A stretch of DNA of 64,000 nt, from assembly GCF_027474845.2 (NCBI RefSeq), contig NZ_CP107031.2, forward strand, positions 372,001-436,000, given 5' to 3'. Shown here one piece after another: positions 3,427-62,237 of this stretch. The notes below the pieces were generated by a model. It worked only from the letters and a program-made list of their open reading frames with translations. It was not told the origin of the DNA and did not search any database. Within the stretch, counting starts at the first letter, position 1, and each line of letters opens with the position of its first letter. Source of the DNA: Maribacter aestuarii. Lineage in GTDB: Bacteria > Bacteroidota > Bacteroidia > Flavobacteriales > Flavobacteriaceae. The position numbers and the translations under genes were made by a program.

Positions 3427-3502
3427 TAGTGTTTTTTAAATTACTTAAAACAAGTAAATCGTTTCGATTAGGTAATTGAAAGACTAAACATCTTAATAAA
3501 AA

Positions 3503-3803
3503 AGCAGGCCATAAGCCGGATTCTGTTTCCGCCGGAGCGGATCCTTATCATTTATCTAGGCCTTTGGTTGCCCAAAAGCTCTAACCGCCTACCCATCGGC
3601 TCGGGCGTGCAGCCCTCAAACACCGATTTACATGACGTTTCACCGTATAGAGTTTACCTGATTTCACTACAGCCGAACTGTACTTGCTTTCTGTTGCACT
3701 TGTCCGCGCCTTTCGGCGGACGGGCGTTACCCGCTATACCGCACTATGGTGTCCGGACTTTCCTCATTTCGTAAAAACGAACCGCGATAAGGTGGCCTGC
3801 TGG
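3503..3803 (-). ncRNA. rnpB: RNase P RNA (bacterial type A)
   Basis: The catalytic RNA of RNase P, which cleaves the 5' leaders of tRNA precursors. On the minus strand the 5' end reads AGCAGGCC. The universally conserved GAGGAAAGTCCGGAC follows at about 3755-3770, and the 3' end carries ACAGAATCCGGCTTAT before GGCCTGCT. The 5' AGCAGGCC and 3' GGCCTGCT pair to form P1. A TACATTTG -7 element sits just upstream (3807-3814). An open frame on the opposite strand here is non-coding. Ends are placed from the P1 helix and may be off by a few bases. Confidence 0.95.
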
Positions 3804-6302: not shown

Positions 6303-6884
6303 ATGCTGGGCTTAAAACTTCCTACGGACCCTAGGTGGGTGAATATCGTTGAAAAAAATATTGATGAAATCCTTACAGACCATGCCTATTGTGAACAAAA
6401 GGCGGCAAGCACAGCCATATCGCTAATTGTATCCTTCCCGGAATATACCGAGCTGATTGAAGAAATGATTGCCTTATCCCGAGAGGAAATGGCACATTTT
6501 AAAATGGTTCATGATAGAATTATTGCTCGTGGCAAGACCTTGGGCAGGGACAGGAAAGATGAATATGTCCTGGAGCTCATCAAATTCTTCCCCAAGGGCG
6601 GTAGTAGATCTACGCAACTAGTGCACAGGCTTTTATATGCAGCTTTGATAGAGGCCCGCAGTTGCGAACGCTTCAGACTATTATCCGAAGAGTTAAAGGA
6701 TAAAGAACTGGCGAATTTTTACTACAAGCTTATGGTGAGTGAAGCGGGCCATTACACTATGTTCTTAAAGTTTGCCCGCAAATACGGAGACCGTGAAGAA
6801 GTGGATGCCAAATGGCAAGCCCTATTGAACTTCGAGGCCGAAATCATGAAAAAACTAGGCAGCCAAGAAAGTATTCACGGATAA
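6303..6884 (+). CDS. miaE: tRNA-(ms2io6A)-hydroxylase (MiaE-like)
   Basis: A non-haem diiron monooxygenase of the ferritin-like fold that hydroxylates the isoprenyl group of ms2i6A37 in tRNA. The 193 residues match the family length. Carboxylate and histidine ligands are visible in EEMAH (about 61-65), EARSCE (about 117-122) and SEAGH (about 146-150), the expected helix-bundle pattern. The start is supported by a promoter immediately upstream. The gene stands alone, convergent with ppk1. Assignment is by family; substrate specificity is inferred. Confidence 0.88.
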   Translation: MLGLKLPTDPRWVNIVEKNIDEILTDHAYCEQKAASTAISLIVSFPEYTELIEEMIALSREEMAHFKMVHDRIIARGKTLGRDRKDEYVLELIKFFPKGGSRSTQLVHRLLYAALIEARSCERFRLLSEELKDKELANFYYKLMVSEAGHYTMFLKFARKYGDREEVDAKWQALLNFEAEIMKKLGSQESIHG

Positions 6885-54115: not shown

Positions 54116-54509
54116 TCACTTTTAAAAGTATACTGGAGTATTGCGTTTTATAGGTACGTATTACAAAACCTTGTTTCCCTTCGTCTAGCAAAACAGAAGA
54201 TTTATGGGACTTGCATCTCTGTAATCACCTTTTCAAAAGCTGTTATTTTTGAGGTAAGGACAAACTCTCCTCACAATATAACAAGACAGCTATCCCGAGA
54301 GATGAGCCTTGACTAAATAAAACTCTTCAACAATTGGCTTAGATTATATTTGACTAATTAAGTATTAGGTAGCCAACCAAAATAAGACCACATAATTGAG
54401 CCTAAATGTATCTAGCGTTTCAATACCATACTCTTAAGGTTTTATATTCTTACCCTTTTGCAAGAATTCGGAACTTCAATTTTATTATTTAAAATAAATC
54501 ATTTTTTTT
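54116..54509. other. Non-coding region
   Basis: About 400 AT-rich bases between the DUF58 stop and the first ECF-type promoter element. I see no open frame of note, RNA gene or clear terminator. Scattered short repeats only. Confidence 0.6.
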
Positions 54510-54538
54510 CAGGAGATTTTAAAAGTAGATTGTTCTAT
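54510..54538 (+). promoter_or_regulatory. Putative FecI-sigma promoter, site A (small membrane peptide)
   Basis: CAGGAG (54510-54515), 14 bases, TTGTTCTAT (54530-54538). The same elements with identical spacing occur at three other sites around the FecI/FecR genes. It ends 22 bases before the ATG at 54561, giving a leader of about 15 bases. Confidence 0.7.
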
Positions 54539-54560
54539 AAGTGTAACTCAAATTTTTATT

Positions 54561-54704
54561 ATGAAAAATTTACACTCAACAAAGACAATTAACATAGAAG
54601 ATGACAAAGACATTAAAAAAATGTTTGATAATTACAATAAGAACCTCATCGCCATTGGTGTTTTTAGTACTATACAATTCGTCTTCCTGATTTCAATTCT
54701 ATAA
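54561..54704 (+). CDS. Small membrane peptide (47 residues)
   Basis: MKNLHSTKTINIEDDKDIKK begins a 47-residue reading frame ending in TAA at 54702-54704. The first 28 residues are charged and the last 18 (IAIGVFSTIQFVFLIS onward) form one membrane helix. This suggests an inner-membrane peptide with a cytoplasmic N-terminus. It would be unremarkable but for its position directly after a promoter motif shared with the neighbouring FecI-type regulon. No family recognised. The frame is short, so coding status is inferred. Confidence 0.5.
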   Translation: MKNLHSTKTINIEDDKDIKKMFDNYNKNLIAIGVFSTIQFVFLISIL

Positions 54705-54731
54705 GCCTTTTTCCCCAAGTCTTATATTAGC

Positions 54732-57244
54732 TTAGTCAAAGAAAAATTTGATTGAAAGATTGGGCGTTAAGCCCAATGAACTCTGACCAATTTTTTGAAC
54801 CTCCTCCTGAGAAGTAATACGATAAAAAGTATTCAGCGTATTATTTTGGTCAAGTAAATTCCATATAGAAGCCCCGATTTGCGCTTTATTATTTTTGCCC
54901 CAATTAAATTGATAATTGGCAGAAATATCTAGGCGCAAATAATCTTTTAAGCGGTTCGCGTTAACACCGCTATAATTAATTTCCCCATTTTCCAATTCGT
55001 TGTTTGCTTCGGGTGCGGTAAAAGGTCTTCCTGTTCTCCAGTTTAATCCGGCCGCCAAGAGAACCCGTCCCAAATGATAATTGATTCCTGCGGTTAAACC
55101 ATGGGTAATATCAAAATTGTTTGGAAAGGTGGTTTCCGGTAATTGTTCAAAAAGATAAGTACTATTAAGATAGGAGTAACTTATCCAGAACGCATTGTTA
55201 TCTTGAAATTGCTTTCGCAACAAAAGATCAAAACCCAAAGCATCATACGCTCCCGATGTTCTTACAAATTCGAAAGGACCTTGAAAACCTTGGCTTTGCG
55301 TAGTAATACCCTCTACTCTTTTCACAAAGGAAATTGCGTTAATAAGCCAACTAGATTTTTTATAATTTAGACCAAGAGAGGCCTGCTTACTGGTAATAAC
55401 CGGAATTGCCCCATCATTTGAAAGCTGCCACCTCCTCTTTTCAATTCCCAAAAAATCATTTTGAAAGTTGATTATCTGAGAGGTACTCTGATGTTTGAAT
55501 TCACCTAGCGCTTCAAGGTTCAAATGCTTCCCCAACCGTTGGTTAAAACTCAAACGGGGTTCCCACAGTTGTTTATCAAAATCATCCAAATGGTTGAAGC
55601 GTAGACCAAGGTTCATTTGTGTAGCTGAATTCTTGGACGAAAACCCCATCTCCGTAAAAACACTGTGTGTACGGAGTACTTCACCCTCTAAGCGTAAAAA
55701 ACGGGGATCATCCACGTCATCTAAATTGGTGACTTTGGTCTCAATAAAATGATAGCCGTTCGTCCAACTGAATTGGGAATCCAATCGGTTACGGGCCAAA
55801 AATTTTACGCCCGTTTCGGAAACTTTATTTTCCTGAAGAAAACGTTGGTCTTCAAGGATGTTAGCGTTAATGGCTTTTAATTTATAATCGGTATTGTAAA
55901 CGGAAAATTCGGTAATGAATTTTTCCGTCCAGAATCTTTTATGATAAATTCCTGCCGCTATGCTTGTTTGGCTCAGATTACTATCACGAATTACTTCTTC
56001 ATCCTCAACTTCTGCACTTTCATTAAACGTTACCTGATTTGCGGTATGAATAAAGTTGAGTCGTATGCGGTCTTTTTCCGACGGATTAAAAAGCAAACGA
56101 AAGGCCGCGTCATAAAAATCGAAACTGATGTCCGAATTGGTCACTGTACCAGAATTTCTATCAATTTCTGTTTCCTGTGATATCCGGTCAAAATAATTGG
56201 CATAGGTGGGAGTTTCGACAAAATCGCTTATTGACTTGCGAGCAGCAACCTGTAAGGAGGCTTTCTTTCCCAATGGAGCATCCGCAGAACCATTGACATC
56301 GATAAGATTAGCACCAAGGCTTGCCTTTAGACTTGAGTTGAGGTATTCATCGGTTTTCATGGCTATGGTGCCTGAAACACCATCGGTTTCCGACGCACTA
56401 CTCCCATTCTTTCGAAGTTCTACCTTTTGTGTGATTTCCGGGTTGTACATGGATATTAAACCAAAAAAATGTCCGGATTGATACATTTTTATGCCATCCC
56501 AAGAAATGTAATTTTGGTCGTTACTACCTCCTCTAATATTGATATTGGAAACAGTTTCGTCAATACTCATGACGCCGGGTAATGCTTGAACGGATTGTAG
56601 TACATCATCATCGACCAATCCAGGAAGAATATTGAACCTTTCAAAATCTAATTGAACGGCACCATTGTTGAGCTGATCGATACCACGTATCAAAAAATCG
56701 TAAACTATGACTTCCGCGAGCTTTTCTTGGTGAGGTACCAGATATAGGGTGCTGCAATTTGAGGTGTTGAAGTATTGTATTTGCCTAATCAGAGGTTTAA
56801 AGCCCAGATGCTTTATCGTAATCAAATCGTTCTTGCGTAAGCCTTTAAGTTCAAAATAGCCTTCTTCGTTTGCTATTGTGGCCGTTGTGCCATTTTCTAC
56901 GGTAACATAGGGTAGCGCCTCACCGGTATCCTTGTCTTTTAGGTATCCACAGAACATGATACTTTTCAGCTTAACTGAAATTGTTTTGTCTGAAATGATA
57001 ACGAAGTTTAAGTCGGTTTTTTCGCTAAGCGTATCAAGAGAGGCATCTAGGCTCAGCGATGTATCCAGAGCACTCAAGGTGATTCCCTCTACTAAGGAGG
57101 AGGCGTAGTTGAATTGCACGCCGAAACGTTCTTCTAAAGCCTTTAAAACAGTGATGAGTGTTTGGGTAGCATCTTTTTGCGCAAAGCTAGGTACGCTATA
57201 AAGCGATACGAATAGACAAACGCTAAAAAAAATTTCTTAGTCAC
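54732..57244 (-). CDS. TonB-dependent receptor/transducer with STN domain; start frame disrupted
   Basis: An outer-membrane receptor. Domains in order: signal peptide, STN transducer domain (about 25-95: ATQTLITVLKALEERFG onward), carboxypeptidase-like repeat (GYLKDKDTGEALPYVTVENG), plug (LPGVMSIDETVSNINIRGGS) and a 22-stranded-type barrel ending LTPNLSIKFFFD. The receptor frame is continuous with fecR, separated only by its TAA at 57237-57239, and has no ATG, GTG or TTG before residue 40 of the expected protein. A GTG at 57242-57244 overlapping the fecR stop would give MTKKFFFSVCLFVSLYSVPS, an ideal signal peptide, if the A8 run at 57225-57232 had nine bases. STN domains signal to FecR-type regulators. 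It lacks a SusD partner. Confidence 0.85.
57225..57232 (-). other. A8/T8 run where the receptor start loses frame
   Basis: With eight bases the GTG start at 57242-57244 leads to a short dead-end peptide (MTKKFFLAFVYSY). With nine it joins the receptor frame with a proper signal peptide. The site is a homopolymer and could be a base-calling error or a slippage point. Confidence 0.65.
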
Positions 57245-58145
57245 CTTTACTAAAACGCACCTCGGTGCCCTTTAGTATCTCAAAGTCAAGACTCATAGGC
57301 TCGCTGATTGCCTTCAGGGCATTGTCAAGATCGCCATGTACAAAACCTCCTGTGAAAAGTTGGTCGGTATCTACATTGTCAACAGTTATTTTTATGGCGT
57401 ATTGTCTCTGTAGCTCATCTAGAACCTCAGAAACGGGCACACGTTGAAAATAACTGGTATTATTGGTCCACTGAGGTTCATTGTAGCTATTTTTACCCGA
57501 GGTCTTAATACCGTTGACTATTTTAAAATTATCTCCCACTTGTAGGATTTCAGTATGTCCATCGGAAACAACACGTACAGTACCTTCAAAACAGGCAACT
57601 TCAAAAAAACCGTTCCTTTGCTTCACATTGAACTCTGTTCCCAGCACGCTTACCGTACCTTCTGGTGTGATTACGTCAAACTTTGCACCTTTCGCTACAT
57701 CAAAGAAAGCTTCTCCCTTTAATCTTATTTCTCTTTTATTGTCCCACTTGCCTTTATCATAACTCACCTCGGAAAGGGCATTGATCACCACTTTTGATGC
57801 GTCGGGCAATTCAATGGTCGTTTTCTCGGCTACCAAAGTTTGTACTTCGGTTAGTTGGTTGGACAAAAAGAAAAAATATACCCCGATAGCAATAACAACT
57901 ATACTGGCTATACGCAACATTGGTTTGATCCATTCCAATTTTCTGACCTTGGTGTCCGGTACCATGTTTCGCTTCTTGAAAGTTTCAAAATCATCGACTG
58001 TAGAAAAATTGGACGCTTTGAAACTTGAAGCATCACTTATTATGTTTTTATAGAACGAAGCATCTTCTAGCGCATCAAATTTCTTGCTTTCTTCTTCGGA
58101 AAGTTCGTCTAAAAGCCACTTTTGTATCAAATTGTCTTTGTCCAT
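57237..58145 (-). CDS. FecR-family anti-sigma/transducer protein
   Basis: A single-pass inner-membrane regulator. The 302-residue form starts MDKDNLIQKWLLDELSEEES; an in-frame ATG at 58172 lies inside the promoter motif and is rejected. The cytoplasmic N-terminal part (1-70) would bind the sigma factor, the membrane helix is near 77-97 (IASIVVIAIGVYFFFLSN), and the periplasmic FecR domain carries REIRLKGEAFFDVAKGAKFDV and VLGTEFNVK. The C-terminal DUF4974 (FQRVPVSEVLDELQRQYAIKI) is typical of Bacteroidota. It lies between the sigma gene and the receptor, and has its own predicted promoter (site B). Confidence 0.92.
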   Translation of the reverse strand: MDKDNLIQKWLLDELSEEESKKFDALEDASFYKNIISDASSFKASNFSTVDDFETFKKRNMVPDTKVRKLEWIKPMLRIASIVVIAIGVYFFFLSNQLTEVQTLVAEKTTIELPDASKVVINALSEVSYDKGKWDNKREIRLKGEAFFDVAKGAKFDVITPEGTVSVLGTEFNVKQRNGFFEVACFEGTVRVVSDGHTEILQVGDNFKIVNGIKTSGKNSYNEPQWTNNTSYFQRVPVSEVLDELQRQYAIKITVDNVDTDQLFTGGFVHGDLDNALKAISEPMSLDFEILKGTEVRFSKGD

Positions 58146-58163
58146 GATTTCGGATCTTTGTCT

Positions 58164-58192
58164 ATATAACAATGAAGTATTGAATTCTCCTG
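58164..58192 (-). promoter_or_regulatory. Putative FecI-sigma promoter, site B (fecR and receptor)
   Basis: On the minus strand CAGGAG (58187-58192), 14 bases, TTGTTATAT (58164-58172). It occupies the gap between the sigma stop (58194) and the fecR ATG (58145). The elements and spacing equal those of sites A, C and D. Confidence 0.72.
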
Positions 58193-58193
58193 A

Positions 58194-58718
58194 CTATTTA
58201 ATCTTAAAATTTTCCAATTCTTTTTTTAATTGATCAAAAGCACTGTAAATACGGTACTCCACAACCTTTTGGGTTACTCCCAATAATTCTGCAATTTCTT
58301 GGTGCTTTTTACCTTCTACTTTGTTCAGCATAAAAGCGGTGCGCTGATCGTCGGACAATTTTGAGAGGGCGGCTTGGTACTTTTTGTAGTACTCATCCTT
58401 TTCCAGCAGAAACTCAGGATTTTCATTCGTGTATCCTTTTGGGGACTCACTTTTATATTTTAAAACTACTTTTTGGTGCTTTGTCTCATTGAGCATCAAA
58501 TTATTGGCCACGGTAAACAAAAAGGACTTTGCTTTTTCCGTCGAAACATTTTTACAGTTTTCCCAAAGTTTAACAAAAGCATCCTGAGCTTTATCACTGG
58601 GGTTTAATCGGTCACCGTATTTATAGTAGAGAAAATCGTTAAGGCTTTTGGCATATTTGTTATAGATATTGGCAAACAAAGTTTCGTCACAAATATCTTC
58701 ATGTAAGGCTTTTTCCAA
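58194..58718 (-). CDS. FecI-type ECF sigma factor
   Basis: A 174-residue ECF sigma factor. Region 2 at about 10-80 (FANIYNKYAKSLNDFLYYKYG, then SDKAQDAFVKLWENC and FLFTVANNLMLNE). Region 4 at about 115-168 (LSDDQRTAFMLNKVEGKKHQ, then EIAELLGVTQKVVEYRI). It precedes fecR and the TonB receptor on the minus strand, the standard cell-surface signalling order. No CAGGAG-type promoter lies upstream of it, so it may be expressed independently of its own activity. Confidence 0.93.
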   Translation of the reverse strand: MEKALHEDICDETLFANIYNKYAKSLNDFLYYKYGDRLNPSDKAQDAFVKLWENCKNVSTEKAKSFLFTVANNLMLNETKHQKVVLKYKSESPKGYTNENPEFLLEKDEYYKKYQAALSKLSDDQRTAFMLNKVEGKKHQEIAELLGVTQKVVEYRIYSAFDQLKKELENFKIK

Positions 58719-58768
58719 GTGGTTCTAAGTTTACTGTTTAAAAGTAACGATCTTTTTTTGAAATTTTT

Positions 58769-58797
58769 CAGGAGTTTTTAACGTTTAGTTGTTTTAT
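58769..58797 (+). promoter_or_regulatory. Putative FecI-sigma promoter, site C (repeat lipoprotein)
   Basis: CAGGAG (58769-58774), 14 bases, TTGTTTTAT (58789-58797). It lies between the divergent sigma gene and the lipoprotein, 36 bases before the ATG at 58833. Confidence 0.72.
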
Positions 58798-58832
58798 TCA
58801 TAATGAGAGTATTTCTAGAAACCATAACTATT

Positions 58833-60263
58833 ATGAAATTCACAACTAAATTTTTCACATTTCTTCTACTTATTCTAATATCCACCCTCACCTCTTGTAG
58901 GGAAGAAGAGTTTGCTTTTGAGGGCGTTGCCCCAGAGCAAAGCTTAAGCGCAGGTTCAAATGTAGCGAACTTGTTGGTAAGAACTTCATATAACGATGGT
59001 TCTAAAGACAATATCATTGACCAAGCAAGCTGTATTTCTGTTCAACTACCAGTAAACGTAATCGTTAATGGTACGGAGGTTATGGTTAATACTGAAGATG
59101 ATTTTGACCTTATCGAGGATATATTTGAGCAAAATGATGACGACGAGGATACCTTGGATATTGTTTTTCCGGTAACTATCATATTTCCTGACTTTTCGGA
59201 AGAAGTAGTTTTAAATGCAACTGAGCTACAAGAATTTGTAGCCGATTGCTCAGGAGAAAACCAAGTTGACGAGGATATTGAGTGTATTGATTTTGTTTAC
59301 CCCGTTTCGATTTCAATATTCAACTCCAATACGGAAGAAATTAAAACTATGACCCTGCCGAATGATAAGGCGTTATTTAATTTTGTTTCCGCTCTGGAAA
59401 ATACCGACGTTGTCAACATCAAGTTTCCAATTTCATTGGTACGTGCCGATGGTATGGAGTTGACAGCAACCGATCTTGAATCACTTGAAAACCAAATTGA
59501 AAATGCAAATGGAACTTGTGATGAGGATGACGACAATGACTATAATGACGATGATTGCGGCGACTGCGACCCCACTCAATTGGAAGATGTATTCGCGAGC
59601 TGTACGGAATGGGTGGTTGATGGAATAATCAGAAATGACACTAATCTTACAAACTTGTATAACGACCTTTCTTTCAGCTTTCAGGTCGATGGCACCTTAG
59701 TGGTCAACTCTGCAACGGAAACTCTAATTGGTAATTGGACTGCTAGCGGTTCAGGAAATCTCATTAATGTGGAAATTTCAGTTCAAGGATTGGACGATTT
59801 CAACGATATCTGGTTACTGAACGAAATAGCCTCCGAAAATAGTCAAGGTAGGGTAAACCTGATAATTGGCGAAGACGTACTGCGTTTTGACAATGCCTGT
59901 TTAAGTGGCAACGGTAATGGACATATTCCCCAAGATATCAGTCAGGTTCTAACGGACGGAAATTGGACAGTAGATTCATTTATGGAAGGAGATACGGACA
60001 GAACCGTTGATTTTAATGCCTATGTCTTGACTTTTGATATTGATGGAAATGTAATTGCAGATAATGGCACACCTACTAATGGTACCTGGAATGAACAAAA
60101 CGGTGGTCCCTTTATAGAATTTGATTTTGGTATGGTACCGCCTATTGATCAGATCAACAAAGACTGGACAATAGTTTCGGTTTCTGACACTCGTGTAGAA
60201 TTAAGTTTTATAGATTCTCAAGATTTTGGAAGAAAGGATACCTTGGTTTTAGGTAAGCAATAA
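58833..60263 (+). CDS. Large acidic lipoprotein with two pairs of internal repeats
   Basis: A 476-residue lipoprotein. The ATG at 58833 gives MKFTTKFFTFLLLILISTLTSC with Cys at 22; an ATG at 58803 would fall at the predicted transcript start and is disfavoured. Residues about 60-135 and 145-220 are two similar units, each starting at a Cys: CISVQLPVNVIVNGTEVMV / CIDFVYPVSISIFNSNTEE. Both continue with a VFPVTI or KFPISL strand, an ELQEF or DLESLE helix and a closing Cys. An Asp/Cys-rich linker follows (CDEDDDNDYNDDDCGDCDP). The C-terminal half holds two lipocalin-like units, CTEWVVDGII... and GNWTVDSFM.... No known function. Confidence 0.82.
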   Translation: MKFTTKFFTFLLLILISTLTSCREEEFAFEGVAPEQSLSAGSNVANLLVRTSYNDGSKDNIIDQASCISVQLPVNVIVNGTEVMVNTEDDFDLIEDIFEQNDDDEDTLDIVFPVTIIFPDFSEEVVLNATELQEFVADCSGENQVDEDIECIDFVYPVSISIFNSNTEEIKTMTLPNDKALFNFVSALENTDVVNIKFPISLVRADGMELTATDLESLENQIENANGTCDEDDDNDYNDDDCGDCDPTQLEDVFASCTEWVVDGIIRNDTNLTNLYNDLSFSFQVDGTLVVNSATETLIGNWTASGSGNLINVEISVQGLDDFNDIWLLNEIASENSQGRVNLIIGEDVLRFDNACLSGNGNGHIPQDISQVLTDGNWTVDSFMEGDTDRTVDFNAYVLTFDIDGNVIADNGTPTNGTWNEQNGGPFIEFDFGMVPPIDQINKDWTIVSVSDTRVELSFIDSQDFGRKDTLVLGKQ

Positions 60264-60292
60264 AACTTCACTTTAGTTCTAAAACTTTAAAA

Positions 60293-60350
60293 GACCTTTT
60301 TTGAGGTAGGATTTAAACAGGATCCACCTTAAAAAAGGTCATTTTGTTTT
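60293..60350 (+). terminator. Terminator of the repeat lipoprotein gene
   Basis: GACCTTTTTTGAGGT and ACCTTAAAAAAGGTC (60293 to 60340) pair as a long stem with one mismatch, followed by ATTTTGTTTTTAG. It lies 30 bases after the stop. Confidence 0.85.
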
Positions 60351-60437
60351 TAGTAAATACGCTAAGGATGAACTGCATTGGGTATAATAATTCAGATTTA
60401 CCTTTATCGAATAAAATGACCGTTCATCTTTTTGGTT

Positions 60438-60466
60438 CAGGAGTTACTTAAGCGTCCTTGTTTTAT
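60438..60466 (+). promoter_or_regulatory. Putative FecI-sigma promoter, site D (receiver protein)
   Basis: CAGGAG (60438-60443), 14 bases, TTGTTTTAT (60458-60466). It ends 25 bases before the ATG at 60492 and shares elements and spacing with sites A-C. Confidence 0.72.
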
Positions 60467-61331: not shown

Positions 61332-62237
61332 TCAATTTAACATCCGATATTCATTAGGGGTCTTCCCCATTTTCTTCTTAAAGAGCCTTGTAAAATGTTG
61401 TGGATATTTAAAACCTAGCTCATAGGCTATTTCGCTTAGCGTTTTCTCCGGATCAAAGATTTTCTGTTTGGCTATCTCAATCAACTGGTCTTGAATATGG
61501 TCGTTGGCGCTTTTGCCAGTTTCTTTTTTGACCAGGTCGCCGAAATAATTGGAAGACAGCTTTTGTTCCTCGGCAAAATAGCTGACGGAAGGAGTTCCCA
61601 GCTCTATGGCTTTTCCTGTTTGGATGTAGGAATTCAAGGAAATCTCAAACTTTTGGATTACACCTAGGTTTTCCTTTCCCCTGGTAATGAACTGCCGATC
61701 GTAGAACCGCATACAGTATTTCAAGAATAGTTCAATAGTGGCTACTACGACTTCTTTACTGTGCTTGTCTATTCCATGGGAAAGTTCAGTTCGTATCGTA
61801 TCAAATAAGTCCAACACCAATTGCCGTTCCTTTTTTGAGATATGGAGTGCTTCATGGGATAGATAGGAGAAAAAACTGTAGTCGCTAATCGTTTTGGCCA
61901 AATGGGTTCCATAAAGCAGATCTGGATGAAACAAAAGCGCATGACCGGACGGTTTAAAACTAGCATCGATATGCTCCACCTGCACTACCTGTCCAGGTGC
62001 TAAAAACACCAAGGTCCCATCTTGGTAATCATAGTTCTGCCGGCCATATCTTAAAATACAACCTTCGCCTTGTTTCAAGAAAATTCCATAAAAATGATAG
62101 CGGACGGCATCGGCAGGCTCCCGCCCATCCAAGGTACCTTCCGAAAGGTCATGGACGCTGACCAAGGGGTGCAAGGTTGACAGATTGAATTTGGAGCAAT
62201 AGTCATCTACCTTTACCAAGTCTTTCGCTGAAGCCAT
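61332..62237 (-). CDS. AraC-family transcriptional regulator
   Basis: A 301-residue DNA-binding regulator. The first 200 residues form a cupin-like sensor (GTLVFLAPGQVVQVEHI). The C-terminal 100 residues are the two helix-turn-helix motifs of AraC proteins: SVSYFAEEQKLSSNYFGDLVKKETG, split as SVSYFAEEQKLSS and NYFGDLVKKETGK, then KTLSEIAYELGFKYPQHFTR and KKKMGKTPNEYR. It is divergent from the two NTF2-like genes and the flavodoxin, a typical arrangement for a local activator. The effector is unknown. Confidence 0.93.
   Translation of the reverse strand: MASAKDLVKVDDYCSKFNLSTLHPLVSVHDLSEGTLDGREPADAVRYHFYGIFLKQGEGCILRYGRQNYDYQDGTLVFLAPGQVVQVEHIDASFKPSGHALLFHPDLLYGTHLAKTISDYSFFSYLSHEALHISKKERQLVLDLFDTIRTELSHGIDKHSKEVVVATIELFLKYCMRFYDRQFITRGKENLGVIQKFEISLNSYIQTGKAIELGTPSVSYFAEEQKLSSNYFGDLVKKETGKSANDHIQDQLIEIAKQKIFDPEKTLSEIAYELGFKYPQHFTRLFKKKMGKTPNEYRMLN

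Follow-up and report, generated by a model that had tools for sequence, protein, structure and literature searches.

A FecI-type sigma factor gene of Maribacter aestuarii flanked by a pair of promoter-like elements, and variation of their -35 half with the sigma factor across the Flavobacteriaceae

Which factor reads the four near-identical promoter-like elements that surround a fecI gene in the window, the 64,000-nucleotide stretch of Maribacter aestuarii DNA analysed here, and what do these elements control? An initial annotation made by eye had reported CAGGAG-N14-TTGTTnTAT at four places, each immediately upstream of a gene. A pattern scan bears this out. There are four exact copies at the positions and on the strands given in Table 1, every spacer is 14 bases long, and the gap from the end of the element to the start codon is 22 bases for the peptide, 18 for fecR, 38 for the lipoprotein and 25 for the receiver. 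That the window holds no fifth copy was also correct, even when up to two mismatches were allowed (the same four sites and no others; 100 shuffles gave a mean of 0.60 and a maximum of 3). In the complete genome (3,864,851 bases) the exact sites are these four alone, all inside 6 kb around fecI. Near-matches number 2 at one mismatch and 26 at two mismatches, and the total of 32 compares with 25 for the reversed pattern, so that beyond the exact four the genome holds little above background.

Table 1. Putative promoter elements and genes of the fecI cluster; coordinates are those of the window.
Feature	Coordinates	Strand	Basis and remarks
Element 1 (peptide)	54510..54538	+	exact CAGGAG-N14-TTGTTnTAT; a CAGGAG element also precedes similar peptides in L191, L201, L308 and L309
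Element 2 (fecR-receptor)	58164..58192	-	exact match; in the fecI-fecR gap
Element 3 (lipoprotein)	58769..58797	+	exact match; divergent from fecI
Element 4 (receiver)	60438..60466	+	exact match
47-codon peptide, charged N-terminus, one C-terminal membrane segment	54561..54704	+	translation
TonB-dependent receptor/transducer	54732..57236 (frame, stop to stop)	-	CarbopepD_reg_2, Plug
FecR-type anti-sigma/transducer	57237..58145	-	PF04773 FecR and PF16344 FecR_C above cut-off
FecI-type ECF sigma factor, 174 aa	58194..58718	-	Sigma70_r2, Sigma70_r4_2; start codon uncertain, TTG
Repeat lipoprotein, lipocalin-like C-terminal domain, probably a second one before it	58836..60263	+	
Stand-alone receiver protein, 141 aa	60492..60917	+	PF00072
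AraC-family gene	61332-62237		adjoins the cluster

Short motifs are in general easily spotted by eye, and this is all that speaks for taking the four matches as chance or as a functionless dispersed repeat. The shuffled and reversed controls and the conservation at homologous places described below oppose such an explanation, and because the N14 sequences between the boxes differ among the four elements, these are not copies of one repeat; we consider it scarcely credible. A run of T at 54502-54509 immediately precedes the -35 half of element 1, and likewise at L191, L201, L308 and L309. It may have an UP-element-like role.

The fecI product has sigma regions 2 and 4 above cut-off and no match to region 3, the composition of an ECF sigma factor, and scores 103 bits against TIGR02985, under the cut-off of 126.4. 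The FecR-domain gene adjoins the sigma gene, as in FecIR systems. Residues 25-87 of the receptor, whose start region is in a different frame, bear a weak likeness to FecR_C (22.8 bits versus a cut-off of 24.4) and are read here as a putative signalling domain. At 57119-57244 (-) the likely receptor start, a GTG overlapping the end of fecR, is out of register with the main frame at an eight-T run; at two related loci (L191 and L308) the frame is open at the same place. The break may reflect a sequencing error, slippage or a broken gene. The annotated length of the membrane peptide was right on translation, with one membrane segment. Fold matches of the lipoprotein cover chiefly residues 361-475, and its sequence profile matched one solved structure weakly (4zgf, E 0.00038); the predicted lipocalin-like fold does not by itself imply a function. 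The sole Rfam match in the window at gathering scores is RNase P RNA, bacterial class A, at 3497-3803 (-).

The sigma gene does not lie downstream of a promoter of this type, as it does in an autoregulated ECF operon. No fifth exact element is present in the genome for fecI, and the element upstream of fecI faces away. In the 400 bases upstream of the gene the sole TAnnTTTG on its strand is about 245 bases off, within the lipoprotein gene.

Related loci have the same layout. Relatives of fecI are present in 51 of 60 genomes, its own included, and at a stricter cut in 137 of 199 Flavobacteriaceae genomes. At 80 named loci found in one scan, fecR lies downstream in all 80, a receptor in 78 and a homologue of the lipoprotein in 73; in 68 of these 73 the lipoprotein match starts about 100-410 bases upstream on the opposite strand. 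The nearest named relative is that of Pelagihabitans pacificus, with a FecI identity of 82%. In six relatives inspected by eye, a pair of matching elements occupies the two gaps on either side of fecI; the -10 is similar to that of the window and the spacer equal, but the -35 differs (TGGGAC, TGGGAT, GCGTAA or TAGGGT). True pairs at homologous loci score higher than re-paired ones, with 42 of 80 reaching at least 6.5, compared with 7-16 in five random re-pairings. The elements are conserved in homologous intergenic regions, in the same two gaps at related loci, and the regulon is no peculiarity of this genome but an example of a layout that is widespread in the Flavobacteriaceae. Some genus members (L040, L044, L049, L052) have short tandem repeats in the fecI-fecR gap, which may put the fecR promoter farther from fecI.

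Across sigma paralogues the -10 half stays the same, and the -35 half varies with the paralogue. This variation was compared with the recognition helix of sigma4, where X denotes the middle residue of E-X-R and x4 the residue five positions earlier; in the FecI of the window these are Tyr and Gln. Pairs of elements were chosen for their similarity across the two gaps at each locus, near TTGTTnTA and with a 14-base spacer only, blind to the sigma factor. Seven of 30 genus loci were left out (three at contig ends, four with a match running past a stop). The helix was readable at 105 loci, of which 86 gave a pair at threshold (172 hexamers) and 19 none; the counts below and the mutual information use the 86. 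Among 58 hexamers with X = Tyr, CAGGAG occurs 28 times and CAGGAA 13 times, and base 1 is C in 50. His goes with a TGGGA type (30 hexamers, base 2 G in all 30 and base 1 T in 27), and Lys with Ile-Tyr goes with a TAGGA type (52 hexamers, base 1 T in all 52 and base 2 A in 51). Where Lys is combined with Met-His, 28 of 28 hexamers are TAGGGT. The two hexamers of Asn are AAGGAA and AAGGAG, and the two of Ser are GCGTAA. Residue X shares 0.97 bits of mutual information with base 1 and 0.64 bits with base 2. Within the Tyr class, x4 goes with base 6: Gln with G (26 of 26), Arg with A (11 of 16) and Lys with no single base. This is a match of the -35 half to the sigma4 helix of the kind expected of an ECF promoter, in the form of a correlation among loci that share descent.

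By alignment to the sigma-E sequence, X presumably occupies the position of sigma-E Ser172. In the available part of a published account, sigma-E Ser172 and SigW Thr171 contact base -34; the correspondence between the hexamer and the bases of the sigma-E promoter is inferred from the spacing to the -10. Because the -35 half shifts with the helix by which the sigma factor reads DNA, it points to FecI as the reader. The initial annotation had named the FecI-type factor encoded between elements 2 and 3 as the likely reader, and the tracking of its recognition helix by the -35 half across loci supports that proposal.

The class patterns from this first set were applied to the best 70 loci, in list order, of another search. 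After removal of 11 repeats of the first set and one unread helix, 58 loci with 116 regions were held out. The predicted class was found in 95 regions, another class in 2 and no class in 19. Both off-class regions have TAGGGT beside Lys-type sigma factors. The predicted class is present in the fecI-fecR gap at 47 of the 58 loci and in the fecI-lipoprotein gap at 48, and on the opposite strand an element of any class is present in none of 118 regions. When the predicted -35 was allowed a spacer of 9-19 bases, 14 bases fitted 95 regions, 11, 13 and 19 bases fitted one each, and the rest fitted none. As in ECF promoters, the two boxes stand at a fixed spacing. Since the held-out loci are kin to the first set, the test bears on the rule and not on independent descent.

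These results also bear on whether the elements are instead operators of a separate regulator, for example the AraC-type protein encoded at the edge of the cluster. Two half-sites with a fixed spacer would suit a transcription factor too, and the gene is close at hand. An operator reading does not sit well with a first half that tracks the adjacent sigma helix (as in 95 of the 97 held-out regions that contain a class element), with an orientation fixed toward the gene (none of the 118 on the wrong strand), or with a second half that agrees with the TGTT box put forward as the -10 of Bacteroides ECF promoters in the available text of PMC12596196. We judge it very improbable.

A different question is whether a paralogous sigma factor reads these ECF promoters as well as, or instead of, the FecI encoded among them. 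The genome has 12 FecI-like matches, and one paralogue (G000:C1:2648335, 45% identical) shares the -10 half. Its own promoter type is GTAGGGTnTT-N11-TTGTTnTA, with three exact sites in this genome, none of them among the four. Members of its family have TAGGGT at their own loci, in all 28 hexamers of the first set and in 24 of 24 class elements among 30 held-out regions, the other 6 having no element. Judged on this one paralogue, such reading is improbable, if slightly less so than an AraC operator. It is very probable that the four elements act as promoters for the FecI-type sigma factor whose gene lies among them.

The sister promoter type is genus-wide, with matches in 32 of 36 genomes and none for the reversed control. 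The sites of this type that were read away from the paralogue's locus include some before a 55-residue membrane peptide, some before lipoproteins and nine before a non-coding stretch. The 55-residue peptide stands behind a TAGGGT-type promoter in three genomes (L174, L185, L188), much as the window's 47-codon peptide stands behind its element. The non-coding stretch ends in a strong terminator and was found by terminator search alone in 16 of 36 genomes; TAGGGT-N14-TTGTT lies upstream of it at all 16 loci. We regard it as a candidate small RNA, sigma-dependent and about 86-115 bases long (L173, at G000:C1:483810, -, and L408-L423). A second similar copy follows at 10 of the 16 loci by a strict pattern, and Rfam gave no match at gathering scores in the five candidate loci that were scanned. 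Extra TGGGAG/TGGGAT elements, the type of the His-type sigma factor, were seen at G022:C5:956513 and 956922 (L068); a thioredoxin-like gene follows one of them, and the other precedes a gene that appears Rieske-like by eye.

To see how far the correlation can be separated from kinship, a tree was built from an alignment with the helix columns removed. It has 8 changes of sigma class, where 7 is the possible minimum, and its well-supported branches yield only one independent pair for Tyr and one for His. The tree could not show independent class switches, and it is likewise without power for the link between Gln and G at base 6. With shared descent and so few independent pairs, the association of helix and -35 half cannot be corrected for kinship, and the -35 code is best described as a strong correlation that has a structural basis but falls short of proving parallel switches.

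A scan of 299 Flavobacteriaceae genomes gave 46 exact sites, spread over 34 of them, and for the reversed control 5 sites in 3 genomes. The distribution is not random, either in the family or in the genome itself, where the exact sites cluster around fecI. Six of the 42 exact sites in other genomes are deep within long reading frames (L280, L285, L293, L297, L298, L332) and look like background. Thirty regions were taken from 27 of the 33 other site-bearing genomes. Five genomes with dissimilar sites and G322 were left out; the five were read afterwards, and finally all 46 sites were covered. Twenty of the 30 regions contain fecI; each site there is followed by fecR, by the lipoprotein gene or, in two of the genomes, by the gene of the small peptide. 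In the 10 regions that lack fecI the site stands before a secreted-looking protein, mostly a lipoprotein (signals judged by eye); these include L332, background-like as it is.

Peptides of 47-49 residues and like make lie behind a CAGGAG element, beyond the receptor gene, at L191, L201, L308 and L309. They are 22-34% identical to the peptide of the window, so that the case for homology leans equally on length, make-up, place and promoter. L309 has three peptide copies in a row beyond one receptor gene, at 6848, 5853 and 5134 (-), the first with CAGGAG, the second with CAGGAA and the third with no evident element. A large protein search for the peptide returned 7 proteins including the window's own; one shares 83% identity and one comes from Saonia flava.

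Among 37 related genomes none has a close relative of the receiver. The best-scoring matches are 38% identical and lie within longer response regulators, and among the matches listed none besides the receiver itself is more than 40% identical. Near fecI at the 80 named loci there is one weak match only (L236). The assignment of the receiver to the regulon is therefore a prediction from sequence. The initial annotation had suggested a small regulon in which fecR and three other transcripts share one signal. The elements of fecR, the lipoprotein and the peptide recur in relatives, in keeping with that suggestion, and the arrangement is not confined to this genome.

These features suggest the following scheme. 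A ligand at the receptor would send a signal through FecR that frees FecI, and FecI with RNA polymerase would then transcribe fecR and the receptor gene, the surface lipoprotein, the small membrane peptide and the receiver, with fecI itself excluded. The sigma factor would thus raise its own sensor and restrainer and not itself. The CAGGAG of the -35 half would be set by the sigma4 helix, with Tyr at the Ser172 place of sigma-E and Gln five residues earlier. The TTGTTnTA -10 is common to the sister FecI factors, and the -35 half would keep paralogous circuits apart in one cell. The lipocalin fold suggests a surface ligand binder for the lipoprotein, the small peptide may be a membrane partner of FecR or of the receptor, and the receiver may be a link to a two-component system.

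FecIR signalling as such is already known. In E. coli FecI-FecR-FecA, as here, an ECF sigma factor, a FecR-domain protein and a TonB receptor/transducer are encoded in one cluster. The E. coli fecIR transcript is Fur-controlled and not FecI-driven according to the available part of PMC9249621, whereas here the element between fecI and fecR would drive fecR and the receptor gene, and the cluster further includes a lipoprotein gene in divergent orientation, the gene of a small membrane peptide and a receiver gene. The Serratia HasI-HasS-HasR system is closer in one respect. As described in the same portion of that paper, its sigma gene is not autoregulated and HasI expression raises the anti-sigma gene hasS (PMC9249621), so that there, as proposed here, the sigma factor raises the gene of its restrainer and not its own. 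Has is a heme-receptor system; in the window the order is sigma gene, promoter, fecR and receptor, and the accessible account mentions no lipoprotein or small peptide like those of the window (PMC9249621).

The ECF -35/-10 specificity code of Todor et al. (2020, PNAS), according to a review (PMC8103513), relates sigma residues position by position to promoter bases and drew on autoregulated ECFs with known promoters. Here, by contrast, the sigma gene is not among its own targets and has a probable promoter on each side. In B. thetaiotaomicron two promoters (SigW-1 and SigH-1) have TGTT near the -10 as a proposed ECF element, the SigW-1 motif not being significant in that paper's own test (PMC12596196), and the PM2 promoter has -10 and -30 boxes (PMC7366714); the available parts of these accounts hold no CAGGAG class with a fixed spacer and no helix correlation. 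SM6 of Flavobacterium psychrophilum, an ECF-type promoter motif from the same bacterial family, is described in the accessible text of PMC9723704 as having CGT in its -10 region, with genes that include T9SS components. The CAGGAG-N14 motif is not described in the literature that was searched by title and abstract, which is no proof of absence, and the layout, the local regulon and the family-wide -35 code were likewise not seen there.

The locus is best read as a FecI circuit that has a local regulon and whose sigma gene lies between a pair of promoters; the finding is real and its reading sound. Of more interest is the wider -35 code. Predicting ECF promoters is difficult where the sigma gene is not among its own targets. 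Because most loci carry their own promoter pair, and kin of FecI are so widespread in the family, these loci form a natural series of -35 bases set against sigma4 residues. With this series one can test directly how specific the promoters are, how paralogues are insulated and which genes orphan FecI factors control, and the outputs indicated for such circuits include small membrane peptides and a small RNA. A broader picture can be offered tentatively, as one that we hold to be possible but not yet probable. Duplicated FecI circuits of the Flavobacteriaceae would be insulated by a -35 code in which bases 1-2 are set by the residue at the Ser172 place, base 6 by the residue five positions before it and bases 5-6 by the choice between Ile-Tyr and Met-His, the -10 being fixed. 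Their core output would be their own restrainer and receptor and a lipocalin-type surface lipoprotein, joined in some lineages by a very small membrane peptide with a feedback effect on the sensor, and the genus-wide sister circuit would also drive a small RNA. If this is true, swapping the one helix residue would redirect the factor to a sister promoter.
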